NCBI GenBank assembly: GCA_024710005.1
Contig: JANJVQ010000025.1
Location: forward strand, 1 to 64,000
Reading direction: 5' to 3'
Source: Paludibacter sp.
GTDB lineage: Bacteria > Bacteroidota > Bacteroidia > Bacteroidales > Paludibacteraceae
DNA length: 64,000 nucleotides
The notes under the pieces are model-generated. The model was not told where the DNA came from and did not search any database. It saw only the letters and a program-made list of their open reading frames with translations. Each line of letters begins with the position of its first letter. Position 1 is the stretch's first letter. Shown one piece after another: positions 14,607 to 57,576 of this stretch. The translations under genes were made by a program, and so were the position numbers.

Positions 14607-14671
14607 CAAAGATAAACGAACATATTAATTCAGATTTTCACAGATGTTCGCAATACTGACAAAACTGTTCA
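14607..14671 (-). promoter_or_regulatory. Promoter with regulon operator (minus strand)
   Basis: Minus-strand half-sites TGAACAGTTTTG (14671-14660) and CGAACATCTGTG (14650-14639) start 21 bp apart; 24 bp further is the -7 box TATCTTTG (14614-14607). The start codon at 14556 follows 50 bp later. The spacing is identical to the plus-strand regulon promoters. It should drive the operon 14556-9421. Confidence 0.75.
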
Positions 14672-14707
14672 AAACACAGGCACATTGCCTATTGCCGGAG
14701 CAGGAAA

Positions 14708-17700
14708 TCAATCTTTTTTCATGAATTCTCTCGGAGAAGTACCGTACACTTTTTTAAAGCATCGGGAGAAGTAACTGGGTGAAGCAAAACCGGTAATATA
14801 GGATACCTCAGATATATTATTCCCTTCCTGGAGCAACCGCAAGCCTTCCTTGAGTTTCACTTTGTTGATGTATTCAGTTGCCGACATACCCACCAGACCT
14901 TTTAATTTGGTATGCAGCAATGTCCTGCTAATACCAAGGTCTTTCGTCAGGTTAACGATAGAATAATTTTCTTCCGACAAATGACTCATGATATGCTCAT
15001 TGATTGTTTCAAGCAACTTCTTATCTCTGGAATTGATTACGGCGGATTCAAAAACAGAATCGGTATTTTCCCTGAAATAGTTGCGTTGATTTTCCTGGGT
15101 AGTCAGGATGTTTTTCACCTGTTGAACTAAAATTGCCGCGTTAAATGGCTTCTTGATATAAAAATCAGCGCCATATTCATAGCCTTCAGCCACATTATCA
15201 TCGCCGGCCTTGGCAGTTAACATGATGAAGGGGATGTGACAGGTTTCAATCGAAGTTTTCATCAACCGGCACAATTCAAGTCCGTCCATCTCCGGCATCA
15301 TCAGGTCACTGATGATTAAATCGGGCGTGGTTTCGAGGGCAGCAGCAAATGCTTCCTTTCCGTTCGTGCAAAGCTTAATCCGGTAATCAGCTTCAAAGAT
15401 ACTTCCTATAAACTGCAACATATCGGGGTTGTCTTCCACAACCAGCAAATAAGGTATTTCATCGGACTTATGATGATTATCGACTGCCTGACTTGCAACA
15501 GGATTAATCAGTTCATTCTCCAGCACATCCGGAACCAGATATTGATAACTCACAATTTGCTCATTATCAAATTTACTTTCCGATTTTTCATGCTCTTCAT
15601 AACTTTTTACATCCACATTCAGCACAACAGTAAATTTACTTCCTTTGCCTATTTCGCTTTTCACATCAATCCGGCCCTTATGCGAAGCCACCAGTTGCTT
15701 TACCAGATTCAGACCGATACCAAACCCACTGTTTTTATCGTGGTCGCTAATCTGGTAGTATTTTTCAAAAATTTTATGCAGATTCTTTTCCGATATTCCC
15801 CTGCCTGTATCTTCCACCTGAATTCGCAGCATTTTCACGCCGTTTTCGAGGAAATATCCAGCCGACAGCTTCACTTCTCCCTGTGGCTCTGTATATTTGA
15901 ACGCATTAGAGAGTAAATTATACACAATTTTTTCAACTTTAACAGAATCGAAATACACCGGATATTTGGCCACGGTAATATCCATGGTAAAATGAATCTT
16001 CTTTGATTCGGCCCAGGATCTGAATCCGTTTCCAAGTTCAAGTATAAACCTCAATGCATATCCTTCATGCACCGTGATTTTCTCTTCTTCCGTTTCAATC
16101 TTACCCAATGAGATTAATTCTTCAATCAGGTGTTTCATCCGTTCCGCATTGCGTCTGATCATGCGTAGTTTTTCTTCCAAATCGGGAGACAGGTTAAATT
16201 GCGTCAACAGGTTCTGTATGGGCGAAATTATCAGTGTAAGCGGCGTATTCAGTTCATGCGACACATTGGTAAAGAAATTAAGTTTCAGGCGGTTTATTTC
16301 CTTGATACGTTCTTTCTCATTTTTTTCTTTCAGGGCAGCACGTTCTTCTTCCCGCTTTTTGTTCATGTGCCGGTTATAGTAAAACGCAATCCCCAAAAGC
16401 AGGAGTGTATAAATAACATAAGCCAGATCTGTTCTCCAGAATGGGGGCAACACCTTTATCCTGATCGATCTTACATCGGTATCCGCCCAACTGATATTGT
16501 CGGCCACTTTCAACATAAACGTATAATCTCCCGGTGACAGATTAGAAAATGAAACCTGTCTTTGTGTTCCCATGTTAATCCAGTCCTGATCCGAATTTGT
16601 CATTTTAATATCGAACGACAAATTTTTCGAATAAAACAAGGTGGGCAGTGTAAATTCAAAGGAAATAAATTTTGCCTGTTCACTGGTAAGTACAATTTCC
16701 TCTACCTCATTAATTGATTTCTTGATTGGAGATTCGGGATCATCGGGAACGACACTTTTCCCCATGATTTTAAAATCGGTGATATCAATCGCAGCCTTGG
16801 AATGAGGCATCACCAATGCCTGAGGGTCGAAACTGATTAAGCCATCGATGGTACCAAAATATAAGCGTCCATTTCTGTCCTTGTAAGCCGAATTATAATT
16901 GAACTGATTATTGGGTAAGCCCTCCTGTACGGTGAAGTTACTGAATACCTTGTGAATCAAATCATATTTGCTCAATCCGTTATTTGTTGTAATCCATAGA
17001 TTCTTATCATTATCCTGGATAAGTGAGAAAACCGTATTGGAAGGAAGACCTTCGGTTGTTCTGAAAACAGTAATTGAATCTTTTTTGGTATTCAACAAAT
17101 TCAGTCCACCATTGTGAGTGGCAATCCAAATGTTCTTTTGGTGATCTTCATAAAGGTAATTGATAAATAAATCTGAAATTGAATTACGACCGCCCGGCCG
17201 GTAATTTTTCAGGTTATTCATCTCCTTGTTGTATTTGAATGCACCCAGATTCCGGGAGCCCAGCCATATTTCCCCCCTGCTGTCTTCTAAGAGCACATTC
17301 ACGGTTTCATTGAAAAAAATGTCGGGTTCAAATTGTTTAAACTCATTGGTGATTTTATTATAGGTCATCACACCATTACTGGTCGCAATCCAGATCAGAC
17401 CACTTCTGTCCTGTAAAATGGCAAAAATATTATCAACGTTAAATGCCTGATACTTTTCTCTGTTATATAAGGTAAAACGTTGTGATGACTTTTCGAGCTT
17501 ATTCAGCCCACCTAAAAAGGTGCCAATCCACAAATCGCCATCCCGGTCGAGCATAACCGAGTGCACATTGTCATACGACAGGCTGTTTTGTCCGGGCACT
17601 TGCTTGTACACTTTAAAAGCATCATGCTTTTTATCAAAGTAGTTTAAACCTCCATCCTCGGTAGCTATCCACATATTATCCTGATTGTCACCAATAATCT

Positions 17701-18754
17701 GACGTACTGCTTTGCCACTGATATACTGCCTCGAATCGCCGGATTCATAAATATTGAACTGCTGATAGATTTTAAGCGAAAGATTGACACCTCCGAAATA
17801 GGTACCAACCAACATATTTTTATAATTATCGAAATAGATGGAGTGAATCGCATTATCATTTATGCTGTTTTTATCTGACAAATTGTGCAGAAAAATCTGC
17901 ATTTTCTTTGTTGCCGGATTGTAGATATTCAACCCTCTCTCAGTACCAATCCACAAACGTCCAAAATCATCTTCTGTCACACAGTGCACATAGTCATTGC
18001 TTAAACCCTTAACCTGAACAAAGTTACCCGATTGTTGGTCAAAATAGCAGATACCTTTATTTCCGGTACCAATCCATAGTCTTTTTCCGGAATCAATATA
18101 CAGGTGAAAAATATTATTGGATATCAGGGCATTCGGGTTTGCAGGGTTACTTTTATAGTGACTGACAGTATTGCTCTCCAGGTTAATATGGAAAAGTCCG
18201 CTTGTTGATCCAACCCAAAGTCTTCCGGAATCATCAATTACCAGACTGGTACAAAAGTTATTGATTTCAAGATTATTTTCACTCTTATATGAAACGAAAT
18301 CACGAGCAACAGGATCAAAGACTTTCAATCCTACAGAAGACGCAGCAAATATCTTTCCGTCTTTGGTTTCAATAATGTCCCTGATAATTAATTTCCGGTT
18401 GATTGTCTGAAATTTATTATTTGCACGATCGAATATTGCCACCCCGGTAATGGTCGACACCCAAAGGGTTTTCTTACTATCCTGATAAGTGCAATGTACC
18501 AGGTTACCCGGCAGTGATGTGGAATCGTTGAATTGATGTTCGTATTTCACGATGGTTTGACCATCGTAACGACACAAACCTGCCTTGGTACCAAACCAGT
18601 AATACCCTTTATAATCCTGCATGATGGAAAAAACGGTATTACTGGGTAGTCCGTCTTTATTGGTAATATGTGAAAAACGTATTTTACTGGTCGCTCCTCC
18701 AGCAATCAATATGCTGAAAACAAACAACAATATAAAACTAATCCACCTATTCAT
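14708..18754 (-). CDS. Hybrid two-component system sensor/regulator (HTCS)
   Basis: A 1348-residue regulator combining sensor, kinase, receiver and DNA-binding domain in one chain. A signal or anchor segment (5-22) is followed by two-component propeller repeats (about 25-670, recurring forms of LWIGTxxGL), a Y_Y_Y domain (about 690-770) and one membrane helix (about 777-793). The cytoplasmic part has a HisKA domain with H833 in SHELNTPLTL, an ATPase domain (NLLSNAFKYTE, VEDTGRGIS, GFGIGLNLV), a receiver with D1150 in IISDLMMPEMDG, and a C-terminal AraC-type helix-turn-helix (ISEVSYITGFASPSYFSRCFKK). Such proteins sense an oligosaccharide in the periplasm and activate PUL genes. It is the only DNA-binding regulator in the window, so the recurring 21-bp-spaced direct repeats are probably its operators. 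Its own promoter lacks them. Confidence 0.97.
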   Translation of the reverse strand: MNRWISFILLFVFSILIAGGATSKIRFSHITNKDGLPSNTVFSIMQDYKGYYWFGTKAGLCRYDGQTIVKYEHQFNDSTSLPGNLVHCTYQDSKKTLWVSTITGVAIFDRANNKFQTINRKLIIRDIIETKDGKIFAASSVGLKVFDPVARDFVSYKSENNLEINNFCTSLVIDDSGRLWVGSTSGLFHINLESNTVSHYKSNPANPNALISNNIFHLYIDSGKRLWIGTGNKGICYFDQQSGNFVQVKGLSNDYVHCVTEDDFGRLWIGTERGLNIYNPATKKMQIFLHNLSDKNSINDNAIHSIYFDNYKNMLVGTYFGGVNLSLKIYQQFNIYESGDSRQYISGKAVRQIIGDNQDNMWIATEDGGLNYFDKKHDAFKVYKQVPGQNSLSYDNVHSVMLDRDGDLWIGTFLGGLNKLEKSSQRFTLYNREKYQAFNVDNIFAILQDRSGLIWIATSNGVMTYNKITNEFKQFEPDIFFNETVNVLLEDSRGEIWLGSRNLGAFKYNKEMNNLKNYRPGGRNSISDLFINYLYEDHQKNIWIATHNGGLNLLNTKKDSITVFRTTEGLPSNTVFSLIQDNDKNLWITTNNGLSKYDLIHKVFSNFTVQEGLPNNQFNYNSAYKDRNGRLYFGTIDGLISFDPQALVMPHSKAAIDITDFKIMGKSVVPDDPESPIKKSINEVEEIVLTSEQAKFISFEFTLPTLFYSKNLSFDIKMTNSDQDWINMGTQRQVSFSNLSPGDYTFMLKVADNISWADTDVRSIRIKVLPPFWRTDLAYVIYTLLLLGIAFYYNRHMNKKREEERAALKEKNEKERIKEINRLKLNFFTNVSHELNTPLTLIISPIQNLLTQFNLSPDLEEKLRMIRRNAERMKHLIEELISLGKIETEEEKITVHEGYALRFILELGNGFRSWAESKKIHFTMDITVAKYPVYFDSVKVEKIVYNLLSNAFKYTEPQGEVKLSAGYFLENGVKMLRIQVEDTGRGISEKNLHKIFEKYYQISDHDKNSGFGIGLNLVKQLVASHKGRIDVKSEIGKGSKFTVVLNVDVKSYEEHEKSESKFDNEQIVSYQYLVPDVLENELINPVASQAVDNHHKSDEIPYLLVVEDNPDMLQFIGSIFEADYRIKLCTNGKEAFAAALETTPDLIISDLMMPEMDGLELCRLMKTSIETCHIPFIMLTAKAGDDNVAEGYEYGADFYIKKPFNAAILVQQVKNILTTQENQRNYFRENTDSVFESAVINSRDKKLLETINEHIMSHLSEENYSIVNLTKDLGISRTLLHTKLKGLVGMSATEYINKVKLKEGLRLLQEGNNISEVSYITGFASPSYFSRCFKKVYGTSPREFMKKD

Positions 18755-18820: not shown

Positions 18821-19912
18821 TTACCACAGTTTCATTTTCAGCCGGTCGTTTTCACTGATGACGCAATTGCTGAATTCAACTTCAACTCCCTGCTTTACCG
18901 TCATCCGTACAGCTTTACCGGGTAAAACCACATTCAGATTATATTTTCCATGTTTCAGCACAAATTGAAGGTCAGAAAGATTGGTTACTTCAATCAAACC
19001 CTTTTCGGCATTGATTACCCTCACATCCAGACTTGCCTTTATCAGGCTCTTGATATACTGCTCTTTACCTGCAACATATCCCTGAAAAAGAGCCAGTGTT
19101 CTTCCGGCAAACAAGGCTTCCTTAATCGCCTCTTCGGTTCTTTCTTTCGCGAATACGAGTGTCATGGTGCGTTTCGCTCCATCTCCATAGGCTGTACCCG
19201 TAAGGTGATGGATATCCGTATTTGCAGTAACCGTCATTCCGGTTTCTTTTACCCAGGTCATCACCCTTGGATACCAATTAAAACCATTACACAACTCAAC
19301 GCCATGAATCAGTTTATCTTTAATCAGTTTTTTATGGATGTCGTACATGGTGGTAGAGTCATCGGGCCATCCCGGATGATTCCATAATATGAATGCCCCC
19401 TGGCTTACTGCTTCTTTGATGGCGTCTACCGGATCCTTGACTTCCAGCTTGTTTGCATTCTCGATAAACAGGGCATTGAGGTGACCGATTGGTTTCTTTC
19501 GCGTTATTTCAGCACCTTTAATAACAATGAATCCTATATTATTTCCATGGGCAACAGCCAACTCATTCGACTTATTGAAATCTGCAACAACATATTCTTT
19601 GTGAGGTCGATATTCGATGTGATCGGTGATGGCAATGGCATCCAATCCATCATTCCAGGCTTCATTTACCCTGGCCACAGGCGACACATGTCCATCAGAA
19701 AAGAAAGTATGGGAATGAAAATCACATTTTAATGTTTTGTATCCATCGATATCCGGAATCCGGATCACGCTTCTGGTTTCTGTGTAGTTATTCTCAGGAA
19801 ACTTATACACTTCCGAATCCCGTTTCTGAGCCTGTACTGAGCTCAAAGTTTGCAATGTAACAAAAAACGCTAACAACAGGCAGTTAGCACTAAATCGCCG
19901 GTTAATCTTCAT
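18821..19912 (-). CDS. Secreted PHP-domain metallohydrolase
   Basis: A 363-residue protein with a signal peptide (about 1-28). A PHP-type metal-dependent phosphoesterase domain follows, with metal ligands readable in DFHSHTFFSDGH (about 65-76), ITDHIEY (about 95-101), KGAEIT, NHPGWP and ANTDIHH. The C-terminal about 100 residues are beta-rich. PHP domains hydrolyse phosphate esters, but exported CehA/McbA-like members in glycan loci are mostly uncharacterised and some may act on other bonds. Its start codon region has a regulon-type promoter facing the plus-strand sulfatase operon. It lies 66 bp upstream of the HTCS gene. Confidence 0.85.
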   Translation of the reverse strand: MKINRRFSANCLLLAFFVTLQTLSSVQAQKRDSEVYKFPENNYTETRSVIRIPDIDGYKTLKCDFHSHTFFSDGHVSPVARVNEAWNDGLDAIAITDHIEYRPHKEYVVADFNKSNELAVAHGNNIGFIVIKGAEITRKKPIGHLNALFIENANKLEVKDPVDAIKEAVSQGAFILWNHPGWPDDSTTMYDIHKKLIKDKLIHGVELCNGFNWYPRVMTWVKETGMTVTANTDIHHLTGTAYGDGAKRTMTLVFAKERTEEAIKEALFAGRTLALFQGYVAGKEQYIKSLIKASLDVRVINAEKGLIEVTNLSDLQFVLKHGKYNLNVVLPGKAVRMTVKQGVEVEFSNCVISENDRLKMKLW

Positions 19913-19955: not shown

Positions 19956-20021
19956 CAAAGATACATGAATATCTCAATGTTAGGCTTTCAATCATGTTAA
20001 GTTTTATGACACTATTGTTCA
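19956..20021 (-). promoter_or_regulatory. Promoter with regulon operator (minus strand, divergent)
   Basis: Minus-strand half-sites TGAACAATAGTG (20021-20010) and TTAACATGATTG (20000-19989) start 21 bp apart; a -7 box TATCTTTG (19963-19956) follows after 25 bp, one more than at the other promoters. The distal half-site overlaps the distal half-site of the opposite promoter. It drives the PHP gene and possibly the HTCS gene behind it. Confidence 0.7.
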
Positions 20022-20080
20022 TAATTGACTATTTTCAGAACAATAGTGAACGAAAAACCTGATAAAAAGTTTTAGCTTTG
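20016..20080 (+). promoter_or_regulatory. Promoter with regulon operator (plus strand, divergent)
   Basis: Half-sites TGTTCATAATTG (20016-20027) and AGAACAATAGTG (20037-20048) start 21 bp apart and are followed after 24 bp by the -7 box TAGCTTTG (20073-20080). An 11-bp perfect inverted repeat (20010-20020 with 20038-20048) arises because half-sites for both directions interleave. It drives the operon 20127-26296. Confidence 0.72.
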
Positions 20081-20126: not shown

Positions 20127-21572
20127 ATGAAAGTATTAAAAAGCAATTTAATTTTATCGCTTGCCGTAACAGGTGTAGCGCCTGCACTCTTATACTCTTG
20201 TGCAGAAGAACCCCAAAAGCCGAATGTTATTTTCATCCTGACGGATGACTTAGGGTACTCCGAATTAGGATGTTACGGTAATTCATTCAATGAGACACCT
20301 AACATTGACAAACTGGCTGAAAATGGCATTCGTTTTACAAACGCATACTCGGCCCAGACGGTAAGCTCACCTACCAGGGCTGCCCTCATGACAGGGTTGT
20401 TCCCTCCCCGTACCGGCATCATTGATTACCTGCGTCCTGATGACACCAAGCATTTGAATGAAGATTACACAAGCTTAGCCGAGGTGTTCAAAAGCAAAGG
20501 CTATCACACCGGCATCATCGGAAAATGGCATCAAACCGGCTATACAAGAGCTGGCGCACCCTATGAATCATCACCTGACAAACACGGTTTCGACGAAGTC
20601 ATTGTATCGGAAAATGAAGGAATCGCCAATGGAACATGGTTCCATCCTTACCATTTCAACAAAGATATTGAAAAGCTATTGGCAGGCTCCAAAGAATTTC
20701 TTGTTGACCGGCTGAATGAGGAAGCATTACGGTTTATCGACAGACAAAACGACGAAAAGCCATTCTTTTTGTATTTGAGCCATTATGCAGTACACACACA
20801 GGTTCAGGGCAAACCGGAAGATGTTGAATACTTTCGCAACAAACCGGGAGCGGGTGTAAGCGCACCATCGCCAAACAATCCGGAAAACGATCCTTATAAA
20901 AAATGGCCGGCCGACTATCGCGCCAACAAAAACAATCCACATTTAGCTGCACAGTTGAGGGATATTGACCGGGGTGTCGGCGCTATTTTGCATAAACTAA
21001 AGGAAAAAGGTCTGCTCGAAAATACCCTGATTGTATTTACCAGCGATAATGGAGGCGAAACCAATGTCACCACCAACGCTCCATTACGCGATGGAAAAAG
21101 TTCGCAGTATGAAGGCGGTATCCGCATAGCTAAAATTGTCTATTTCCCGGCAATGATTCCTCAAGGTAAGGTGATTGACGAGCCGGTAGTCACCTACGAT
21201 TACCTGCCTACTTTCTGTGATATGTTGGGAGTTCATAAAAAAGACCTGTATCAGCAACCCGATGGTTTTTCGCTGTGGTCACTCTGGACAGGCAAGAGCG
21301 AATCTCTCAAAGAAAGAGCACTTTACTGGCATTATCCGCTGGATAAGCCTCATTTTCTGGGAGGACGGTCATCGGCCGCCATTCGTTCGGGCGACTGGAA
21401 ACTGATGCAGTTTTACGACTCAGGAGCTCTTGAGTTATACAACCTGAAAGAGGACATCGGTGAAACAAATAATTTAGTATTGCAACATCCTGACATCGTG
21501 AAAGATCTCATGGCAAAACTAAATGCATGGAGAGAGGATGTAGGGGCAGTTGTGCCGGAAATTCAGAATTAG
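20127..21572 (+). CDS. Ser-type sulfatase, lipoprotein
   Basis: A 481-residue sulfatase. The signal peptide ends with LLYSC, giving a likely lipidated C25. Metal ligands D40-D41 (LTDDLGYSELG); signature SSPTRAALMTG starting at S80; later IIGKWHQTGY and TSDNGGET are the usual lysine/histidine and DN motifs. First gene of the first plus-strand operon, 46 bp after the -7 box, followed after 42 bp by another sulfatase. The family is arylsulfatase A-like; the sulfate position it removes is unknown. Confidence 0.94.
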   Translation: MKVLKSNLILSLAVTGVAPALLYSCAEEPQKPNVIFILTDDLGYSELGCYGNSFNETPNIDKLAENGIRFTNAYSAQTVSSPTRAALMTGLFPPRTGIIDYLRPDDTKHLNEDYTSLAEVFKSKGYHTGIIGKWHQTGYTRAGAPYESSPDKHGFDEVIVSENEGIANGTWFHPYHFNKDIEKLLAGSKEFLVDRLNEEALRFIDRQNDEKPFFLYLSHYAVHTQVQGKPEDVEYFRNKPGAGVSAPSPNNPENDPYKKWPADYRANKNNPHLAAQLRDIDRGVGAILHKLKEKGLLENTLIVFTSDNGGETNVTTNAPLRDGKSSQYEGGIRIAKIVYFPAMIPQGKVIDEPVVTYDYLPTFCDMLGVHKKDLYQQPDGFSLWSLWTGKSESLKERALYWHYPLDKPHFLGGRSSAAIRSGDWKLMQFYDSGALELYNLKEDIGETNNLVLQHPDIVKDLMAKLNAWREDVGAVVPEIQN

Positions 21573-21614
21573 AACTTATAAATTTCAACATATAACCCTA
21601 TAAGTCATAGAAGA

Positions 21615-23168
21615 ATGAAAATTCAATCATTATTAACCGGCATGGCGGGTTCTTGTCTGACACTGGCTTGTTTTCAGGCTGAAGCAAAAAGTCCGAATAT
21701 CGTCCTCATCATGACCGACCAGCAACGGGCCGATTTACTGGCAAGAGAAGGCTACCCTTTGAACACCATGCCAACTGTTGACGAGTTGGCATATAACGGA
21801 ACCTGGTTCAACAAAGCCTATACAACCAGTCCGGCCAGTGTGCCGGCCCGCACTTCCTTACTGACCGGCAGATATCCGAAAGCAACCCATGTGAGATGCA
21901 ATCAAAACGAACAAGACGCCTTCTTCGATAAAGATATTTTCCATGTACTTAAAGAAAAGGGCTACATGACTGCTTTGGTAGGAAAGAATCACTCTTACCT
22001 GAGGGCTAACCGGCTTGATTACTGGTCGGAATACAACCACGGCGGAAAAGTAGGTCCATCCGGAACAGCAAAAGGCGATCAGTTTGATAAATTCTTAAAA
22101 GGCACTCAATTGTATGCCTCGTTTGAACCGGCTCCCGGCGGAATTGAGAGTCAGCCAGTATATCGCATGGTTGACGAGGCCAATGCCTGGGTCGATCAGG
22201 TAAAGGACAAACCTTTTATGCTCTGGCTTTCCTTTGCAGAACCCCATAATCCCTATCAGGCATGTGAGCCCTATTTCTCGATGTTCAAAGGCAAGCTGCC
22301 TCCACTGACAACCGGGGCAAAAGAAAGGCTGCTGAAAGGGGAACGCTACGAAACGCTCGCGGAAATGATGGCAATCGGACACGTGGGATACGAAGATCAG
22401 TTAGAGGAATTACGTACAATCTATTTAGGCATGATGCGCATGATCGATGATCAGATCAAACGATTCATCGACAACCTGAAATCGCAGGGCTTGTACGAAA
22501 ACACCATCTTTATTTTCATTTCCGATCACGGCGATTATGTAGGTGAATATGCCCTGATGAAAAAAGGAGCCGGACTGGATGAGATTGCCGCACGTGTGCC
22601 CATGCAATGGAGCGGACCCGGCGTGCAGGCATCAGCTAAGCCACACAAAGCCCATGTTTCATTTGCCGACATCTTTCCCACGGTTTGCGAAATTGTCGAA
22701 GCCCCCATACCTGTCGGCGTACAGGGCAGAAGTCTGTGGCCGATGTTGCAGGGCAAAGCATATCCTGAGACTGAATTCCAGAGCGTGTATGTGGAACATG
22801 GATATGGTGGTCAGTTCTACACGAGAAAAGACGGCACCGACTACCTGGGCGAAGGCGCTGTGACCAAAAACAAATACTTCTTTGATGAACTAAATACCTG
22901 GACACAAAGTGGATTTACCAAAATGGTTCGCAAGGGTGACTGGAAAATCATTTTCGACATGGAAGGAAACGGCCAGCTTTACAACCTGAAAAAAGACCCC
23001 TTAGAGTTGAAAAATCTTTTTGACAAAAAGGCCAGCAGTCGTGTTAAAGCGGAACTGCTCGCAGAATTGCTGAAATGGGAAATTGCTACCGGTGATCCCT
23101 TACCAACACCCCGCAACAGGTATCATTTCAAGAAATACAAACACAATTACTTGTTTAACGAACAGTAA
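21615..23168 (+). CDS. Ser-type sulfatase (TDQQR subgroup)
   Basis: A 517-residue sulfatase with a signal peptide (about 1-24). The first metal motif is MTDQQRADLL (D35), a variant typical of choline-sulfatase and glucosamine-sulfatase-like subgroups rather than the DD of its neighbours. The signature SVPARTSLLTG starts at S75, with alanine instead of the usual serine or threonine at the fourth position. FISDHGDYVGEYALMKKG contains the C-terminal metal ligands. The gene ends 10 bp before the ATG of the next sulfatase. Sulfatase class is certain; relation to N-acetylglucosamine-6-sulfatases is only suggested. Confidence 0.93.
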   Translation: MKIQSLLTGMAGSCLTLACFQAEAKSPNIVLIMTDQQRADLLAREGYPLNTMPTVDELAYNGTWFNKAYTTSPASVPARTSLLTGRYPKATHVRCNQNEQDAFFDKDIFHVLKEKGYMTALVGKNHSYLRANRLDYWSEYNHGGKVGPSGTAKGDQFDKFLKGTQLYASFEPAPGGIESQPVYRMVDEANAWVDQVKDKPFMLWLSFAEPHNPYQACEPYFSMFKGKLPPLTTGAKERLLKGERYETLAEMMAIGHVGYEDQLEELRTIYLGMMRMIDDQIKRFIDNLKSQGLYENTIFIFISDHGDYVGEYALMKKGAGLDEIAARVPMQWSGPGVQASAKPHKAHVSFADIFPTVCEIVEAPIPVGVQGRSLWPMLQGKAYPETEFQSVYVEHGYGGQFYTRKDGTDYLGEGAVTKNKYFFDELNTWTQSGFTKMVRKGDWKIIFDMEGNGQLYNLKKDPLELKNLFDKKASSRVKAELLAELLKWEIATGDPLPTPRNRYHFKKYKHNYLFNEQ

Positions 23169-23178
23169 AGATTTTCTC

Positions 23179-24696: not shown

Positions 24697-24742
24697 ACAT
24701 TTTAAGCTTAATATCGTTTTACTTAAAACAAAATTTAAAGAG

Positions 24743-26330: not shown

Positions 26331-26395
26331 TGAACATAATTGAATGTTTTCAGGACATTGATGAAAAACAAACAATTATATTCAATCTACCTTTG
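26331..26395 (+). promoter_or_regulatory. Promoter with regulon operator
   Basis: Half-sites TGAACATAATTG (26331-26342) and AGGACATTGATG (26352-26363) start 21 bp apart; after 24 bp comes the -7 box TACCTTTG (26388-26395). A 20-bp inverted repeat with one mismatch (26323-26342 with 26373-26392) overlaps the site. It drives 26425-33141. Confidence 0.78.
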
Positions 26396-26424: not shown

Positions 26425-27090
26425 ATGAAAATAAGCACAAATAATCTTCTGATTCTGGCATTTTTCTGTACCTGTTTTACCATTCAGGGACAAAAATTAC
26501 ACATTGCCGAAGAATTCTCCAGTCCCGAATGGGAAGCCGAACTACTGAGGCTCAACCCGGGCAACCAACAAAACGATTATGCATTCGGCGACAACCCATA
26601 TACTACTCCCGCAATCGGCGGCGGTAATGCGTATAACGATTTAAATAATTTTCAATTGTATTTTGGTAAATACAGGCTATTTGGCAGTATCGAATGCCTG
26701 GAAGTACAACCTTGTCCACTGGGAGAATCGCACACCCACAAACACCCTACAGCCAATGTTGCAGTCGCTCTGCGCATCGCGAACCCTGCAGGGTACATTG
26801 AGTTACCGGAGGTTCCCAACGCGGGAAAAATAACCATTCATGCCCGTAACGGCAACAAAGGTAGTAACACCAGGCTGGGACTCGAACGCTACGATAAAAA
26901 CATCGGCACGTGGATACCCATACATGCATTCTTACTAAAGGCATGGGGAAGTTACGAAGGCACCCGCGACGAAGTTGTGTCGTTTGATGTGAATGCTGAT
27001 ACCCCGATTAAACTTCGACTCATCAACAATGTGGAGGTAACGACCAGGTTTGTCAATGTATACAGAATTGAAATCGAAGAAAAACTTTAA
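26425..27090 (+). CDS. Secreted stand-alone beta module protein
   Basis: A 221-residue exported protein (signal peptide about 1-22) made of a single copy of the recurring locus module: it opens with AEEFSSPEWEAELLRLNPG, then YFGKYRLFGSIECLEV, ALRIANPAGYIELPEV, NAGKITIHARNGN, and closes with TPIKLRLINN and VYRIEIEE. No enzyme motif and no T9SS sorting domain are present. The module looks like a carbohydrate-binding beta-sandwich, but no named family is recognised. It is the first gene of its operon and ends 13 bp before the next start. Binding of the locus substrate is an inference. Confidence 0.8.
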   Translation: MKISTNNLLILAFFCTCFTIQGQKLHIAEEFSSPEWEAELLRLNPGNQQNDYAFGDNPYTTPAIGGGNAYNDLNNFQLYFGKYRLFGSIECLEVQPCPLGESHTHKHPTANVAVALRIANPAGYIELPEVPNAGKITIHARNGNKGSNTRLGLERYDKNIGTWIPIHAFLLKAWGSYEGTRDEVVSFDVNADTPIKLRLINNVEVTTRFVNVYRIEIEEKL

Positions 27091-30693: not shown

Positions 30694-30696
30694 AAA

Positions 30697-33240: not shown

Positions 33241-33305
33241 TGAACAAAAGTGCATGTAATCGTAACATAATTGAAAAAATGTTACAATACAAGCATATAA
33301 CTTTG
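33241..33305 (+). promoter_or_regulatory. Promoter with regulon operator
   Basis: Half-sites TGAACAAAAGTG (33241-33252) and GTAACATAATTG (33262-33273) start 21 bp apart; 24 bp later is the -7 box TAACTTTG (33298-33305). It drives 33344-40849. Confidence 0.78.
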
Positions 33306-41923: not shown

Positions 41924-41988
41924 TGAACAAAAATACAAGTATACAGAACATTTGTACGCATCTATAAACTTTCTCCTGAATATATTTG
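41924..41988 (+). promoter_or_regulatory. Promoter with regulon operator
   Basis: Half-sites TGAACAAAAATA (41924-41935) and AGAACATTTGTA (41945-41956) start 21 bp apart; 24 bp later is the -7 box TATATTTG (41981-41988). It drives 42017-47253. Confidence 0.75.
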
Positions 41989-47319: not shown

Positions 47320-47384
47320 TGAACAATAATACACATATTACTAACAAAAGTGAAAGAATGAATGAATCTAACCTTCTACATTTG
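47320..47384 (+). promoter_or_regulatory. Promoter with regulon operator
   Basis: Half-sites TGAACAATAATA (47320-47331) and CTAACAAAAGTG (47341-47352) start 21 bp apart; 24 bp later is the -7 box TACATTTG (47377-47384). The site begins 11 bp after the terminator stem of the previous operon. It drives the gene at 47420. Confidence 0.76.
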
Positions 47385-50672: not shown

Positions 50673-50737
50673 TGAACATGAGTAAAGATAAACTAAACAA
50701 AAGTGCAAGTAATTAATGCCAGAACTGATTAGATTTG
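50673..50737 (+). promoter_or_regulatory. Promoter with regulon operator
   Basis: Half-sites TGAACATGAGTA (50673-50684) and TAAACAAAAGTG (50694-50705) start 21 bp apart; 24 bp later is the -7 box TAGATTTG (50730-50737). It drives 50775-55749. Confidence 0.76.
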
Positions 50738-50774: not shown

Positions 50775-52553
50775 ATGAAGCATTTTACAATCATTTTTAT
50801 CATTCTTTTTCAGTTCGTTTTATTTAGTTTCTCTTCAGCAAAGGAATTAATCAACATTGATTTCACGCGTGATTCGACTAATTGGAAAACAGCTTTTCCG
50901 GAACCATCCTGGAATAGTTTACAAACTGAATTTACAAGCACTGTAGAGAACCAAACCATCGACAGTTACAACTTCAATGGTATATTCGGCACTTTTAATC
51001 CGGGTGTTGGCTCCATGGCACAGCCCATTAACATCGAAAACAACAGTCAGCGTCGCAAATGGGCTTTTCGCATCACCAATGCAACCACCTCATACATTGA
51101 GCTACCTGAACTTACGGGTATTGGTCGCTTTACCGTTTTTTGCAAAAACAGCAACGGCGCCAATGAAGCCAACTTTAAGATTCAAAAATTACAGGGTGAT
51201 AATTGGGTCGATTTACACATATTTTACATTCCACCGCATTACAATCAAAATTTTGAGATGCAGATGGAAAAGTTTCTGAACATCAACGAACCAGTAAAAC
51301 TGAGAATTGCAGGAGCAAACAGAAACATCCACATTTATGCTATCAAAGCTGAATCCTTTGTTGAGGCAGAACCTCGCGAAAAACCCTTACGATTAATATT
51401 ATTACCCGATCAGCAAAGTTATGCCAATCAGTCACACCTGAATCACATTTACGGCATACAATCTTTCTGGATTAACAAACATGCCGACAGCATCAGCTTT
51501 GTCATTAATCAGGGCGACATGACACAATTAAACAATTCAGCTCAGTGGTCAATTGCTGGTGGAGCACTGGGTTTACTCGAAGGCAGGAATATTCCTTTCA
51601 CCTTTTGTGCCGGCAACCACGACATGGGAACACACGCATCAGTAAGAAATACGAATATGATGAACGCTTATCTGCCGTACAACAGATATAGCCGTCACCC
51701 CTGGTTCGGTGGTACGCAGGAAAACAACAAAGTCGACAATACCTATCATACATTCACCTGGCGCAATTATAAATTCCTGATTCTGTCGCTGGAGTTCGGA
51801 CCTCGTAACAAGGTACTCGACTGGGCCAATACCATCATCGAGCAACATCCGCAGCACAATGTAATTATCAACACACATGCTTATATGTTCCAGGACAATA
51901 CCATTATCGGCAGTGACCCTAATCATCCGGGACAGCCACGCTCTTATGGCATCGGCAGCGATACCGGGGATGAATATCCGAACAATGGATTCGAAATGTG
52001 GAATAAACTCGTCAAAAAACATCCTAATTGTCTGTTCGTGTTCAGCGGACACGTAACCGGGAAAGGTATCGGAGAGCTGGTGAGCCAGGGCGATCGTGGT
52101 AACAAGGTGTATCAATTTTTAGCTAACTATCAGGGCGGTGTGGATGGCAGTCAGGACATGCGTAACGGCATGCTGAGAATCGTTGATTTAGACCCTGAAC
52201 ATGGCTCTTTCAGCATAAAAACCTATTCTCCTTATACAGATCAATTACATCCTGATGCCGAACAACACATTCAACATCAAAATGTAAACTTCATTCCCTA
52301 CGAACCCAATGCCACGAATAATCTTGATAATGATGACATCAGGTTGATTGTTCAGAATAAGAAAATTCACATAACCAGTAAAAAGGGAGAAAAAACTCAA
52401 CTGTCGGTTTATGACATCAAAGGTTCAAAAGTAAAACAAAAAACTTTTACACATCAGGCTCAAGTACAGCTGCCTGACACGGGTTATTACGTGATAAAAA
52501 TTCACCAAAAAGAAAGCAATAATTCCTTACACAGAAAAATTATGATATTATAA
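50775..52553 (+). CDS. Metallophosphoesterase with T9SS sorting domain
   Basis: A 592-residue paralog of the other three metallophosphoesterases. Signal peptide about 1-23; N-terminal module about 25-203 (WAFRITN, SYIELPEL, IGRFTVFCKN, PVKLRIAG); catalytic motifs LPDQQSY, NQGDMTQ, GNHD (280-283), NTHAY and FSGHV; sorting domain about 522-592 (LSVYDIKGSKVKQK). It is closest to the lipoprotein form at 24743 in the stretch GSDPNHPGQPRSYGIG, whereas 27104 and 47420 lack this loop. First gene of an operon with a module protein and a sulfatase. Confidence 0.86.
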   Translation: MKHFTIIFIILFQFVLFSFSSAKELINIDFTRDSTNWKTAFPEPSWNSLQTEFTSTVENQTIDSYNFNGIFGTFNPGVGSMAQPINIENNSQRRKWAFRITNATTSYIELPELTGIGRFTVFCKNSNGANEANFKIQKLQGDNWVDLHIFYIPPHYNQNFEMQMEKFLNINEPVKLRIAGANRNIHIYAIKAESFVEAEPREKPLRLILLPDQQSYANQSHLNHIYGIQSFWINKHADSISFVINQGDMTQLNNSAQWSIAGGALGLLEGRNIPFTFCAGNHDMGTHASVRNTNMMNAYLPYNRYSRHPWFGGTQENNKVDNTYHTFTWRNYKFLILSLEFGPRNKVLDWANTIIEQHPQHNVIINTHAYMFQDNTIIGSDPNHPGQPRSYGIGSDTGDEYPNNGFEMWNKLVKKHPNCLFVFSGHVTGKGIGELVSQGDRGNKVYQFLANYQGGVDGSQDMRNGMLRIVDLDPEHGSFSIKTYSPYTDQLHPDAEQHIQHQNVNFIPYEPNATNNLDNDDIRLIVQNKKIHITSKKGEKTQLSVYDIKGSKVKQKTFTHQAQVQLPDTGYYVIKIHQKESNNSLHRKIMIL

Positions 52554-52598
52554 ATATTAGTCGTCTACACCAGACCGGTGACTGGAGACATTTATTAT
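52554..52598 (+). repeat. Intergenic heptamer-type repeat
   Basis: GTCGTCTACACCAGACCGG and TGACTGGAGACATTTA fill the gap between two genes and end about 22 bp before the ATG at 52620. Confidence 0.6.
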
Positions 52599-52619
52599 TA
52601 ACATCAAAAACATATCATT

Positions 52620-53501
52620 ATGAAACATTTGAATTACTTTTTATTTATCGCTATTTTTTCTTTTGTTTTTAATCCTTTAACAAATGCACAGGAACTATGG
52701 CTTGATGAAGATTTTTCATCTGAAGCGTGGTCATTTGCCTTAGAAGAAGCCGGATTGATGCATCCACTGGCTGGAACAGTGGTTGACATTGGAGAGACAT
52801 ATGCAACTTTCCCGTTTAAACCAAATACATACGGTGATATCGAAGGGGTACAAGGTTTTTATATCAACGGGCACTGGTCGGGCAACTGGATTGATGAACC
52901 ACAGACGGGCTTAGATGGAGGAACCATCACTCATTCGATCCGGTTGAGAAATAACAATCTATCTTACATTCAGTTACCCAAGCTATCTAATGCAGGCAAG
53001 ATAACTGTCTATGTTAGAAATTCCAATGCTACAACAAACACAAGTTATCATATTGAGAAGCTGGAAGATGATAACACAACATGGACTAATCTGACTACTT
53101 TTACCACGGCTGGATACAACAATTATCCGGAAGGTGAATTCGATGACAAACATGTTTTTGAGGTGAACAGTTCAACACCCATCACACTGAGGGTCATGAA
53201 AAATACAGCAAGATTTATGAATGTTTTTAAAGTTACCATTGAAAAGTTTGCGGCATCTGGTATCAAGAACAATTTTAGTACTCGAACCAGCATACGCATA
53301 CAGGGTAAAACAATACATATCCAATCTGAACAAGAGGCAAACAGCAACATTCAATTAATTGACCTGTCAGGTCGTCAGGTATGGAACACACATACAGCTG
53401 AAAAACAAGTACAACTCCCGGCATCGATACAACAAGGTCTGTACATCGTCAGGATGGAAAACCAGCACGGATCGCTGAATCAATCTGTTGTTATTTATTA
53501 A
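52620..53501 (+). CDS. Small module protein with T9SS sorting domain (divergent copy)
   Basis: A 293-residue protein: signal peptide (about 1-23), a divergent copy of the locus module (about 25-215) and a sorting domain (about 222-293: IQLIDLSGRQVW, QQGLYIVRMEN). The module keeps DEDFSSEAWSFAL, SIRLRNNNLSYIQLPKL, NAGKITVYVRNSN and TPITLRVMKN but replaces the FDKY/GAIE stretch with an unrelated, aromatic-rich one (FYINGHWSGNWIDE). That stretch may be the ligand-facing face. No enzyme motif. It sits between a phosphoesterase and a sulfatase. Confidence 0.8.
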   Translation: MKHLNYFLFIAIFSFVFNPLTNAQELWLDEDFSSEAWSFALEEAGLMHPLAGTVVDIGETYATFPFKPNTYGDIEGVQGFYINGHWSGNWIDEPQTGLDGGTITHSIRLRNNNLSYIQLPKLSNAGKITVYVRNSNATTNTSYHIEKLEDDNTTWTNLTTFTTAGYNNYPEGEFDDKHVFEVNSSTPITLRVMKNTARFMNVFKVTIEKFAASGIKNNFSTRTSIRIQGKTIHIQSEQEANSNIQLIDLSGRQVWNTHTAEKQVQLPASIQQGLYIVRMENQHGSLNQSVVIY

Positions 53502-53562
53502 AACACCAGTCTCCGGTCACCATACTCCAGTCAGAAGTCTGGTGTCTGGAGACATTAAATCT
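53502..53562 (+). repeat. Intergenic heptamer-type repeat
   Basis: ACCAGTCTCCGGTCACC and AGTCAGAAGTCTGGTGTCTG lead to GGAGACATTAAAT, 16 bp before the ATG at 53575. An in-frame ORF can be extended upstream through the repeat, but the extension is low-complexity and precedes the signal peptide. Confidence 0.65.
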
Positions 53563-53574
53563 AATAAAACCCAC

Positions 53575-55749
53575 ATGAACAAATCCGCCCTTTTTTGCAG
53601 CCTCGGCACATGCCTCACCCTGGCTTCGACCCAAGCCAACGAGTTGAAACAACAGGAAGAGAAACCCAATGTACTGTTCATCATCATGGACGATATGTGC
53701 GACTGGCTGGGTTATCTGGGAGGAAACAACCAGGTAATATCACCAAATCTGGATGGACTGGCAGCACGCGCCATCAACTTTTCCAATGCCTATACGGCCG
53801 TACCGTTGTCTAACCCTTCCAGATCAGCTTTTCTAACCGGCATTCAACCTTTTGTAACAGGCGTATACCACAATAATCATGTACTGGAACATCACCCGGT
53901 TGCCAACAACAGTGTATTCATGCCGCAACATTTTAAGGACAACGGCTACAAAACCCTGGCTGCCGGTAAAATATTTCACACGAAACCTGCCGCAACAGTG
54001 ATGAGTAATATGTGGGATGACATGTCTTCCATCGATGGAGGGTATGGCCCCTGGATTGACAACAATGTATTACCCGATAACCTCAAACATCAGTGGCGGA
54101 ATTTTGAAGCCAAAACGGGTCCTGAGACAGATTTTCCGGATGTAAGAAACTCGAACAAAATCATTCAGTACCTGGGTCAGACGCACGAAAAACCATTCTT
54201 TGCTGCCATGGGATTTTATCGTCCGCACAACCCCTACACTGCTCCTCAAAAGTATTTCGACATGTACAAGTTGGAAGACATTCAACGACCGGATTTTCCT
54301 GCCGATGACCTGGATGATATTCCGGCATATGCCCTCAATAATTTCCTGAATTTACGCGACTACACCAAACTGTTGAGCGAATCAGGCAATTATTATGAGC
54401 AAATGTTGCGGGCATACATGGCCTGCGTAACTTTCGCTGATGATCGCATCGGGATGATTCTTGACGCATTGGATAATTCGGCTTATGCCAATAACACCTG
54501 GATTGTGTTGATAGGTGACAATGGTTTTCACCACGGAGAAAAAGAACACTGGACCAAAACCACGCTTTGGCGCGAAGCCAATCATGTGCCGTTCCTGATT
54601 GTTCCACCGAAAGGAAACACGACATACACGGCGGGGGAATGTAAAACTCCCGTGGGCCTGATTGACATATACCCGACCCTGATAGATATTTGTGGTTTAA
54701 CACCAATTGAAAATCAGTTGCAGGGAAATAGCCTGAAACCACTGATAGAAAATAAGACTGCTGAATGGAATAAACCATCTATTTCAACTTACCTTCCCGG
54801 CAATTTCACAGTGCATTACAACAACTGGAATCTGTTGAAATATGCCAATGGTGAGTACGAATTATACAACATCAACGAAGATGAAAGTGAACATACCAAT
54901 TTAGCCCTGTTGCCTGAATACCAATACATGGTTGATTCACTGGCACAGTATTTACCATCCAAGTGGGTTACCGGTCCGCCGGAGGTATCAGTGACATCCA
55001 TCTCCGAAGATTTTTCATCTGAAGCATGGGCAGCTGAATTAAAACGCATCGATCCTGATTATGTGGAACCTGCTATCGGAAAGGCTTATACCAACATCAA
55101 CAACACGATTCGTTATTTCGACAAATACCTGATGAGCGGGGGTATCGTTACCAAGACCAACACACCTAATTGTGCAATCCCGGGAATCATACACGGAAAT
55201 GAAACACGGGCTGTTGCTTTTCGCTTTGCCAGTTCCGGAAATAAAAGTTATTTTGAACTGCCTACGATGGAGAACGGTATCAGCAATATCACCCTGCATG
55301 TGCGTAATGGAAACGCGACATTACCTGGTTCACTCACCCTGCAACGCTACGATCTGGAGGACTGGACGACCATCAGCACCCTACCGGTACAACCGGCTGA
55401 CAATTTCGGTGCTGTTTCGATGGACGAAATCATCACTTATCCCGTCAATATCAATGAAGCTGTTAAACTACGGATTCATGGTGGCGACCGCTTTGTCCAG
55501 CTTTACAGGATAGATGCGGAAGCTTACAGTGCTTCGGGATTGAACGAACGCCCTGCTTTTTTAATCACATTGCAGGGGCGCAACATCCGGGTACCAAGTC
55601 CCATGAGCATATCAGTCTTCAATACGATAGGTGTATTGCTGCATCAGGAAAAAATTGAAACAGAAATGGAATTGCCCGTTTTCATTGGAAATGGAATTTA
55701 TTTTATTCAATCTGAATTTGGAACTCAAAAGATTTTTATTACGAATTAG
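53575..55749 (+). CDS. Ser-type sulfatase (iduronate-sulfatase-like) fused to module and T9SS domain
   Basis: A 724-residue protein from ATG 53575, which starts the signal peptide (about 1-21). Residues about 30-465 are a sulfatase closely matching 42017-43495: metal ligands D39-D40 (IMDDMCDW), signature SNPSRSAFLTG from S79, DNGFHHGEKEHW. Residues about 476-653 are the locus module (SEDFSSEAWAAELKRIDPDY, VAFRFASSGNKSYFELPTM, NITLHVRNGN, VKLRIHGGDRFVQLYRI) and about 655-724 a sorting domain. It is thus the surface version of the periplasmic paralog. Last gene of the 50775 operon, followed by a hairpin terminator. Confidence 0.93.
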   Translation: MNKSALFCSLGTCLTLASTQANELKQQEEKPNVLFIIMDDMCDWLGYLGGNNQVISPNLDGLAARAINFSNAYTAVPLSNPSRSAFLTGIQPFVTGVYHNNHVLEHHPVANNSVFMPQHFKDNGYKTLAAGKIFHTKPAATVMSNMWDDMSSIDGGYGPWIDNNVLPDNLKHQWRNFEAKTGPETDFPDVRNSNKIIQYLGQTHEKPFFAAMGFYRPHNPYTAPQKYFDMYKLEDIQRPDFPADDLDDIPAYALNNFLNLRDYTKLLSESGNYYEQMLRAYMACVTFADDRIGMILDALDNSAYANNTWIVLIGDNGFHHGEKEHWTKTTLWREANHVPFLIVPPKGNTTYTAGECKTPVGLIDIYPTLIDICGLTPIENQLQGNSLKPLIENKTAEWNKPSISTYLPGNFTVHYNNWNLLKYANGEYELYNINEDESEHTNLALLPEYQYMVDSLAQYLPSKWVTGPPEVSVTSISEDFSSEAWAAELKRIDPDYVEPAIGKAYTNINNTIRYFDKYLMSGGIVTKTNTPNCAIPGIIHGNETRAVAFRFASSGNKSYFELPTMENGISNITLHVRNGNATLPGSLTLQRYDLEDWTTISTLPVQPADNFGAVSMDEIITYPVNINEAVKLRIHGGDRFVQLYRIDAEAYSASGLNERPAFLITLQGRNIRVPSPMSISVFNTIGVLLHQEKIETEMELPVFIGNGIYFIQSEFGTQKIFITN

Positions 55750-55948: not shown

Positions 55949-56013
55949 TGAACATAATTGCATATATCAATAACATGATTGAATGTCTGTTAATTAGCTA
56001 CTTTCTACCTTTG
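55949..56013 (+). promoter_or_regulatory. Promoter with regulon operator
   Basis: Half-sites TGAACATAATTG (55949-55960) and ATAACATGATTG (55970-55981) start 21 bp apart; 24 bp later is the -7 box TACCTTTG (56006-56013). It drives the gene at 56061. Confidence 0.79.
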
Positions 56014-56060: not shown

Positions 56061-57230
56061 ATGAAAACAAAAAACTTACTCCTCGTGGCTGTTTTGGCAG
56101 CCAGTACCCTGTGCCTGAATGCGCAACGATTATTGATTTCTGAAGACATCTCAAGTCCGGAATGGCAAGCAGAATTATTAAGACTAAATCCTGGCTCTAC
56201 AGATGGAACTGTTGAAACTTTAATTAACCCCAATGCACCCAATGTAACTCCTTATGCTCCAAAATCACCTGCAACTATAGGTACTAATGTAAATGCATCT
56301 TACAACACCATCAACTCGACTGATCTTTATTTTGACAAATACAAACTCAGCGGTGACATTGAAACCATAGGTGGTATGGCATCAGATGTTTGTGCTGCCG
56401 ATGGCGGAAATCACAATGTACTAATTAATAATGGCGTGTATAATGGTTCGTATTTACCAGTGGGATTTAGACCCTATAAAAACACAGGTTTTTTTGAATT
56501 CCCTGAAGTATCAAGTGCTGGTAGAATTTGGGCGCATGTAAGATGTGGTAACAACACAAATGCAACAAAAACTTATATACAAAAATGGGATGATGGAGAT
56601 TGGGTTACTCTAGACTCCTTAACATTGAAGAAAAGAAGTCTTTTAACAACTACGGTCGATGAAAATCTGTATTATAATGTCAATACAAGAACACCCATAA
56701 AACTACGAATTGCCAATTTAGTTACAACCGGATATTTTCTACAGATTTATGAAGTGAAAATAGAAGAACATGCTTCTGTCGAGCTTAAACAATCAATAGA
56801 TTCAGCAATCGCCATACGTGCAGCAAATGCCGAGAATATAGGTACTGCATTTGGGCAATACCCGCAAGCAGTTTATGATTCTTTAGGAGTTGTAATTACA
56901 ACATCAACAGGAGTATATGAGAATCTTGATGCTTCAAGAGCAACCCTCTTAAACAATATAACCAAGATGAACGATGCTATCACTTATTTTTATGCCAACG
57001 TCAACGATGTCGGCACCGGCTTCAACCCTGTCAACACCATTACCCTTAAACAATACGGCCGCAAACTGGTAACCAGCGAAGCAACCCGCATCTCCATTTT
57101 CAACACCGATGGTACGCTCTTGTATCAGCAGGATAATGTCAAAATTATGGATGTTCCGGCAAGTATAAGGCAAGGGATATATTTAGTGAAATCAAAATCT
57201 GGGGTACAGAAAATGTATTTTGGGGAGTGA
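56061..57230 (+). CDS. Module protein with helical insert and T9SS sorting domain
   Basis: A 389-residue protein: signal peptide (about 1-20), one copy of the locus module (about 23-237: SEDISSPEWQAELLRLNPG, YFDKYKLSGDIETIGG, NTGFFEFPEV, SAGRIWAHVRCGN, TPIKLRIANL, IYEVKIEEH), a helical segment (about 240-312) resembling small FIVAR-like surface repeats, and a sorting domain (about 322-389: SIFNTDGTLLYQQDN, RQGIYLVKSKSG). From about base 56995 the sequence becomes visibly more GC-rich and rich in C at third positions, so the sorting domain may have been acquired by recombination. It has its own promoter. Function unknown, probably binding. Confidence 0.8.
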   Translation: MKTKNLLLVAVLAASTLCLNAQRLLISEDISSPEWQAELLRLNPGSTDGTVETLINPNAPNVTPYAPKSPATIGTNVNASYNTINSTDLYFDKYKLSGDIETIGGMASDVCAADGGNHNVLINNGVYNGSYLPVGFRPYKNTGFFEFPEVSSAGRIWAHVRCGNNTNATKTYIQKWDDGDWVTLDSLTLKKRSLLTTTVDENLYYNVNTRTPIKLRIANLVTTGYFLQIYEVKIEEHASVELKQSIDSAIAIRAANAENIGTAFGQYPQAVYDSLGVVITTSTGVYENLDASRATLLNNITKMNDAITYFYANVNDVGTGFNPVNTITLKQYGRKLVTSEATRISIFNTDGTLLYQQDNVKIMDVPASIRQGIYLVKSKSGVQKMYFGE

Positions 57231-57302: not shown

Positions 57303-57424
57303 CAACCTTAGTAGCCGATTAATGTTCCTTTGACCTAAACCTTATTAGCTTATTTTGATCTGATTCTTTTTTAAATAAGGTAATAAGGTTAGATATTGAT
57401 GTTACAAATTTGCTACTAAGGTTG
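57303..57424. repeat. Nested inverted repeat
   Basis: Outer arms CAACCTTAGTAGC (57303-57315) and GCTACTAAGGTTG (57412-57424) are perfect 13-bp reverse complements; inside, AACCTTATTA (57338-57347) pairs perfectly with TAATAAGGTT (57381-57390). The about 120-bp cruciform could be a terminator, a transposon relic or an RNA element. Confidence 0.75.
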
Positions 57425-57511
57425 CTCAGTAAGTTTTTCCTTACCATCAAATAGTTAAAGCTGACAACAGGGACAAAATTATTAAACAAACACCTGTTTT
57501 CAGGCATTCTC

Positions 57512-57576
57512 TGAACATAAGTGACGCTTTTATGTACAAGATTGAAAATTTTCAAACAGGCATCTGTCTATATTTG
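57512..57576 (+). promoter_or_regulatory. Promoter with regulon operator
   Basis: Half-sites TGAACATAAGTG (57512-57523) and TGTACAAGATTG (57533-57544) start 21 bp apart; 24 bp later is the -7 box TATATTTG (57569-57576). It drives the gene at 57623. Confidence 0.78.

Follow-up and report, generated by a model that had tools for sequence, protein, structure and literature searches.

What is the means by which a bacterium brings the separate operons of one glycan-degradation locus under common control? The question is raised by a stretch of 64,000 nucleotides from a Paludibacter sp. (hereafter the window; positions 1 to 64,000 of contig JANJVQ010000025.1, assembly GCA_024710005.1), in which ten promoters on both strands carry the same two-part element. 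The window also encodes a hybrid two-component system (HTCS) regulator at 14708..18754, and it is very likely that the ten sites are the operators to which this protein is predicted to bind. This reading, first put forward in an earlier note on this DNA, is supported by the complete HTCS in the locus, by an architecture of direct repeats 21 bp apart that matches published HTCS motifs, and by near-exact operators that occur only together with a close ortholog of the regulator.

Each operator consists of two 12-bp direct half-sites followed by a -7 box of the TAnnTTTG type (Table 1). All ten could be read out much as the earlier note had described them: the half-site starts are exactly 21 bp apart at every promoter, the gap between the proximal half-site and the -7 box is 24 bp at nine promoters and 25 bp at the other, the distal half-site begins with TGAACA at nine and with TGTTCA at one, and the proximal consensus NNAACANNANTG is matched exactly at six. 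For the two minus-strand promoters, the coordinates given there, 14607 and 19956, mark the lower boundary of the -7 box; the corresponding operators run from 14671 to 14639 and from 20021 to 19989. Summarized by column, the sites read TGAACAnnAnTG - N9 - nnAACAnnAnTGAA. Every one of the ten has T0, G1, C4, A5 and T10 in its distal half-site, and the proximal one always has A24, C25, A26 and T31 (offsets from the operator start). The odd distal half-site, TGTTCATAATTG at 20016, follows from the divergent arrangement of operators 2 (20021, minus strand) and 3 (20016, plus strand), since the two overlap by six bases and TGTTCA is TGAACA on the opposite strand. Counting three sites on contig C17 and one on contig C27 that are described below, there are 14 candidate sites, and in each case the first listed ATG follows 67-118 bp after the start of the site (the 67-bp case is 47320, where a later ATG is likelier).

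All six domains of the HTCS scored above the Pfam curated cut-offs, which gives the protein the full HTCS domain set. It does end in an AraC-type domain, as had been supposed, with HTH_18 encoded at approximately 14717-14947, and, judging from the protein family, the propeller is presumably periplasmic. A Pfam scan of the 34 main open reading frames (ORFs) of the window, from which ORFs shorter than 120 aa and overlapping ORFs were excluded, identified the HTCS as the only DNA-binding regulator. The 34 ORFs are predicted to group into ten transcription units with an operator at the head of each, and the sole operator-free gap of more than 130 bp between neighbouring listed ORFs of the same strand, at 5987-6214, is occupied by a dispersed inverted-repeat element. 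The HTCS gene sits with susC (58655-61504) and susD (61511-63238) in a polysaccharide utilization locus.

Could such sites arise by chance? With a position matrix built from the ten sites, ten places in the real 64 kb (training sites included) scored at least 20, versus none in 60 first-order Markov simulations (simulated maximum 19.8), and at a lower threshold ten half-site pairs were found at spacing 21 and none or one at each other spacing from 12 to 39. Leave-one-out scores of the ten range from 16.1 to 33.1. The weakest, 41924 (16.1) and 14671 on the minus strand (18.1), would not stand out by operator sequence alone, because the simulations yield 0.25 sites scoring at least 16 per window (and about 0.9 scoring at least 12 per 64 kb), but they do stand out because each has a -7 box at the right distance and recurs in the two relatives discussed below. 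Across the 3.24-Mb genome, the half-site pair alone has a heavy background (93 matches with up to three mismatches, versus 34 for the reversed pattern); the pair combined with the -7 box gave 14 matches versus none for the reversed control. With up to two mismatches this composite pattern matched 12 places, all directly upstream of a predicted start codon: nine in the window, two on C17 and one on C27. The tenth window site, operator 2, escapes the pattern on account of its 25-bp gap. We also scored 184 control promoters, drawn from 40 regions totalling 800 kb of the same genome and chosen away from HTCS genes, and the best of them reached 6.0. At up to two mismatches the composite pattern thus led to this locus, C17 and C27 only, and the spaced pair is not equally common upstream of unrelated genes, an outcome that the earlier note had named as fatal to the proposal.

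The operator and the regulator are also found together in relatives. Among 149 genomes, HTCS orthologs are present in G027 (98% identical) and G006 (88% identical), which carry the locus, and the next matches among those listed are at most 39% identical. The same 98%-identical protein is also found in public record JAKIYP010000003.1 (metagenome-assembled genome 'Bacteroidetes bacterium isolate UR.bin82'), at the position that it has in G027. When 48 genomes of the genus were searched with the composite pattern at up to one mismatch, there were 8 matches in the present genome (G000), 5 in G006, 7 in G027 and none in the other 45, and so the three genomes with matches are exactly those with an HTCS ortholog at least 88% identical. 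That the operator should be absent without the regulator was an expectation that we added ourselves. At two mismatches, six of the other 45 genomes have one match each, and at up to three mismatches those 45 have 74 matches (1.6 per genome, maximum 7) versus 33 for the reversed pattern. In a separate observation, a second operator-like pair, GTATCAAAATTACA...CAACAAAATTGA and its variants, recurs 24 bp before TAnnTTTG in G002, G032, G033, G045 and G047, and in degenerate form in the present genome (L199, 13650-); it is probably the site of another regulator.

The operators precede orthologous genes in both G006 and G027. When seven orthologous promoters of G000 and G006 were aligned without gaps from the operator start, identity was 159/168 (95%) in the half-sites, 54/63 in the 9-bp spacer, 114/168 in the 24-bp gap, 96/140 in the 20 bp upstream (68-69% for these two flanks) and 48/56 in the -7 box. 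The gap and -7 values are lowered because promoter 20021 falls out of register past the operator, where the gap in G006 is 24 bp rather than 25 bp. The six-base overlap of operators 2 and 3 is kept in G006, at 180450-180455. In G027, a 62%-identical gene with its own, differing operator replaces 56061-57230. A further place in G006, at 188706 (score 17.7), was discarded as it has no TAnnTTTG at the right distance.

Table 1. Coordinates of the regulator gene, the candidate operators and the predicted units they head
Feature	Coordinates	Strand	-7 box	Remarks
HTCS regulator	14708..18754	-		1348 aa; Reg_prop propeller, Y_Y_Y, HisKA, HATPase_c, receiver, C-terminal AraC-type HTH_18
Operator 1	14639..14671	-	TATCTTTG, 14614-14607	Conserved in G006 (-7 box there TATCTTCG) and G027
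Operator 1 predicted unit	14556->160	-		8 ORFs: 678-aa unknown, 5 sulfatases, GH43, aldose-epimerase/raffinose-synthase-like
Operator 2	19989..20021	-	TATCTTTG, 19963-19956	Gap 25 bp; PHP-family gene 18821-19912, then HTCS gene
Palindromic core TGTTCA/TGAACA	20016..20021			Common to distal half-sites of divergent operators 2 and 3
Operator 3	20016..20048	+	TAGCTTTG, 20073-20080	Conserved in G006 and G027
Operator 3 unit	20127-26296	+		Three sulfatases, metallophosphoesterase
Operator 4	26331..26363	+	TACCTTTG, 26388-26395	Present in G027, not found in G006
Operator 4 unit	26425-33141	+		221-aa CBM-like protein, metallophosphoesterase, GH43, PL8-family lyase
Operator 5	33241..33273	+	TAACTTTG, 33298-33305	Conserved in G006 and G027
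Operator 5 unit	33344-41770	+		Two endonuclease/exonuclease/phosphatase-family proteins, NAGPA phosphodiester glycosidase, two others
Operator 6	41924..41956	+	TATATTTG, 41981-41988	Sulfatase, GH2, sulfatase; conserved in G006 and G027
Operator 7	47320..47352	+	TACATTTG, 47377-47384	Present in G027, not found in G006
Operator 7 gene	47387 as listed; likelier ATG 47420	+		1048-aa metallophosphoesterase ORF
Operator 8	50673..50705	+	TAGATTTG, 50730-50737	Present in G027, not found in G006
Operator 8 unit	50775-55749	+		Two secreted unknowns, sulfatase
Operator 9	55949..55981	+	TACCTTTG, 56006-56013	389-aa CBM-like secreted protein; near-same operator in G006
Operator 10	57512..57544	+	TATATTTG, 57569-57576	Conserved in G006 and G027
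Operator 10 genes	58655-63238	+		SusC/SusD, preceded by 304-aa CBM-like protein
C17 operator	C17:89714-89778			Composite pattern, up to two mismatches
C17 operator	C17:111620-111684			Composite pattern, up to two mismatches
C27 operator	C27:27090-27154			Before unlinked PHP-like gene; composite pattern, up to two mismatches

Several observations weigh against assigning the sites to the HTCS. The co-occurrence of HTCS and operator is confounded, and it cannot by itself prove that the two are paired because locus, operator and HTCS occur together as one block. Moreover, no counterpart of window operators 26331, 47320 and 50673 was found in G006, and around all three of them that genome lacks neighbouring genes. 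Around 26331, genes 26425, 27050 and 28843 have paralog-level matches only in the fetched G006 stretch; around 50673, the same is true of 50775, and 52620 has no match there at E <= 1e-20. The gene behind operator 47320 is itself present in G006 (86%), where the preceding sulfatase gene, 45799, is absent and the gene adjoins the GH2 gene directly.

The spacing and the promoter also call for caution. At the 184 control promoters, too, direct repeats 21 bp apart exceed those at other spacings (22 versus 5-13), an excess that consists partly of short tandem repeats, and the 21-bp spacing alone is therefore not specific to HTCSs. A motif-free test of direct repeats before TAnnTTTG (at least 9 of 14 matches) covered 171 promoters from 75 loci, most of them included through an HTCS match, some containing other histidine kinases and one (L114) included through a chance pattern match, with C27:27090 as one of the promoters; it gave 29 at spacing 21 versus 3-12 at other spacings. 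Since the controls had also peaked at 21, a family-wide geometry rule for HTCSs was dropped. Bacteroidota promoters have TAnnTTTG at -7, and those of B. fragilis a TTTG near -33, according to the accessible text of PMC7366714. A TTTG in the -33 region (gaps of 17-23 bp) is present at none of the 14 candidate operator promoters versus 31 of the 184 controls, a difference that is not significant, and its absence was rejected as proof of activator dependence because so few controls have one.

One alternative is that the sites belong to another regulator, such as the 37%-identical HTCS paralog on contig C25 or a one-component AraC protein, and that the window HTCS does something else. AraC-type HTH matches number 21 in this genome, four further propeller proteins of HTCS size are encoded on contigs C1, C7, C13 and C25, and repeats that loosely resemble the operator and likewise show the 24-bp gap (GGAACATAACTC/CGTACAAAATTA) occur in the region of the C25 paralog. 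Counterparts of this paralog exist in G006 and G027, and thus presence alone does not separate the two regulators. The C25-region sites, however, score 8.0 and 5.6 by the matrix, well short of the leave-one-out scores of the ten, and it is the HTCS gene of the present locus that is surrounded by operators. The C7 and C13 regions have no repeat of at least 7 of 12 matches at the tested distances, and the C1 region has a doubtful one only. In its DNA-binding domain, the window HTCS is 91% identical to its G006 ortholog, 33% identical to a 941-aa protein on C15 and 35-43% identical to the four HTCS-sized proteins, and the last values make it unlikely that these four share its operator. Overall, we consider ownership by another regulator improbable.

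A second alternative, somewhat less probable again, is that the HTCS binds these sites chiefly as a repressor, or acts both ways depending on its phosphorylation state. The proximal half-site is placed where polymerase could also be hindered, and sequence does not settle the sign. Against this, AraC-family activators usually have direct repeats immediately upstream of the promoter, which is the layout seen here. In the HTCSs that have been studied, the DNA-recognition helix is kept sequestered by the receiver until phosphorylation releases it, according to the accessible text of PMC11253607. Finally, it is scarcely credible that the pair is no operator but a repeat of the genome or an upstream element common to its promoters, the view to which the 21-bp excess at control promoters might lend itself, since no control exceeded 6.0, the 12 best genome matches all lie at locus genes, the C17 region or one PHP-like gene, and the half-sites are more conserved than their flanks.

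If the ten sites are operators of the HTCS, how might it act on them? The propeller would bind a fragment of the glycan in the periplasm, whereupon the receiver would be phosphorylated, most likely, and the AraC-type DNA-binding domain freed. Two such domains may then bind next to each other, one at each half-site, on the same side of the DNA and separated by two helical turns. The proximal half-site ends just upstream of the -33 position, and the bound regulator would for that reason be placed to hold RNA polymerase at a promoter that may be weak on its own, in the manner of a class II activator. The gap of 24 or 25 bp agrees with class II activation as far as position goes; TTTG at the control promoters peaks at gaps of 19-20 bp (12 and 8 promoters), and the end of the proximal half-site falls just upstream of this. 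Since every predicted unit of the window starts at an operator, a single signal would induce the genes for transport, sulfatases, phosphoesterases, lyase and glycosidases at once.

The operator before the PHP gene and the HTCS gene predicts positive autoregulation. In G006, an operator likewise stands ahead of the HTCS gene, with approximately 200 bp from its -7 box to the HTCS start, and no other ATG-started ORF of at least 80 aa comes between this counterpart of operator 2 and the HTCS gene. There (G006:C20, near 180520-180715), the PHP gene has shrunk to a short remnant and the operator has been kept. In the present genome, the 66-bp gap upstream of the HTCS gene contains a separate TAnnTTTG for this gene (18784-18777), with no half-site pair seen there. 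A basal supply of HTCS combined with self-amplification is plausible because the gene has this TAnnTTTG and the operator is kept in G006 without an intact PHP gene. It is possible, though we advance this tentatively and consider it unlikely as a whole, that the regulon is of a 'plug-in' kind, in which linked and unlinked modules were acquired each with its own copy of the operator, the HTCS amplifies itself through the divergent pair that shares a core, and the divergent promoters vie for a single regulator molecule, so that amplification of the sensor is traded off against the first sulfatase operon. The operators missing from G006 where neighbouring genes are missing, the operator of the C27 gene, a gene found in only the present one of three genomes, and the core kept in G006 can be cited for it.

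The predicted regulon is larger than the ten window promoters, with candidate sites on two other contigs. A stretch of C17 (80001-113946; 16 ORFs scanned) contains six further sulfatase genes together with GH43 and GH2 genes, two good operators, of which one has TTAATTTG in place of TAnnTTTG, and a site at 91484 (score 13.4, -7 box at 24 bp) that we keep as tentative only. The AraC-type HTH scan of the genome identified no HTCS on C17, only a 178-aa frame at 61894. C17 as the direct continuation of the left end of the window was rejected, as the left flank of the locus in G027 corresponds to contig C4 of this genome; for that reason C17 probably does not adjoin the window, and judging from these contigs, with the counterpart of the C17 stretch on a separate G027 contig (C148), it is probably a separate locus. 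On C27, an unlinked PHP/DUF3604-like gene with a full operator (C27:27090-28519; L120:17090-18519) lies approximately 2.5 kb after a sulfate-permease gene. Its DUF3604 match is weak yet above the cut-off, and it has no counterpart in G006 or in G027 (75% complete) at E <= 1e-30. The C17 region and the C27 gene, for which no HTCS of their own was found, suggest that unlinked genes can be linked to their sensor from sequence alone.

What would such a regulon act upon? The products of the window include 11 sulfatases, GH43 and GH2 enzymes, a PL8-family lyase, metallophosphoesterases, endonuclease/exonuclease/phosphatase-family proteins, a phosphodiester glycosidase, a PHP protein, SusC/SusD and secreted unknowns; past the window end, the same locus continues with a second SusC/SusD pair and two GH43 genes. 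The NCBIfam model closest to the PL8-family lyase is chondroitinase AC, at 203 bits, far below the cut-off of 1000. The sulfatases, phosphoesterases and lyase suggest a substrate glycan that contains uronate and is sulfated and perhaps phosphorylated as well. A candidate carbohydrate-binding (CBM-like) domain restricted to the locus also emerges from the regulon, and a search of viral contigs gave no match to the CBM-like protein. We looked for RNA-level control as well, and no Rfam family matched the window at gathering thresholds. The intergenic element at 5995-6205 has 43-nt perfect inverted arms (6013-6055 and 6159-6201) with short tandem repeats between them; full or partial copies occur throughout the genome (71 matches, arms and strands counted separately), as with elements of the MITE (miniature inverted-repeat transposable element) or REP (repetitive extragenic palindromic) type.

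The literature searches made did not find this operator, locus or regulator, nor a gel-shift study of the present HTCS, nor a paper plainly on point for divergent promoters or autoregulation of HTCSs; the accessible text of PMC10994844 and PMC12125979 contains nothing on HTCS operators, and PMC12596196 contains no sought term. The closest precedents are in Bacteroides. In the main text of Ravcheev et al. 2013 (PMC3878776), the motifs of 16 Bacteroides HTCSs are direct repeats averaging 21 bp apart, motif similarity tracks regulator similarity, and some regulons have unlinked targets, with several operons of one locus plus a distant operon in one regulon, as predicted here. The motif of HTCS_Rgu-1 (BT4111/BT4124) of Bacteroides thetaiotaomicron has two 12-bp sites and a 9-bp spacer, the same numbers as the present operator; the likeness is one of architecture, and the present locus is rich in sulfatases and phosphoesterases. 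Here the distance to the -7 box is fixed, whereas the terms 'transcription start' and 'TTTG' are absent from that main text. According to the accessible text of the mBio 2024 study (PMC11253607), the DNA-binding activity of HTCSs is restrained by the receiver until phosphorylation and binding to susC promoters was studied by gel shift, with receiver-DNA-binding-domain fragments of BT4124 and BT4663 assayed on the bt4114 and bt4662 promoters, which carry predicted sites.

Thus, the architecture, the control of several operons and the unlinked targets are already published for Bacteroides. A more distant likeness is to AraC of E. coli at araI1-araI2, where direct half-sites lie two helical turns apart and the proximal one abuts the upstream promoter element. 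Unlike AraC, the regulator here is a membrane protein that works by phosphorelay, and the promoters carry the TAnnTTTG box of Bacteroidota. In the present lineage, which is not one of the model Bacteroides, the operator is sharply defined and 13-14 candidate promoters can be set beside one candidate regulator; a few DNA probes could test a whole complex-glycan response, and the fixed operator-to-promoter distance is a usable filter when predicting targets of this HTCS. What the present case adds to the known systems is this fixed distance, the divergent operators that share a palindromic core, the site before the HTCS gene and the locus-restricted CBM-like domain, and the least ordinary parts are the overlapping divergent operators and the module-by-module spread that the operator may have undergone.

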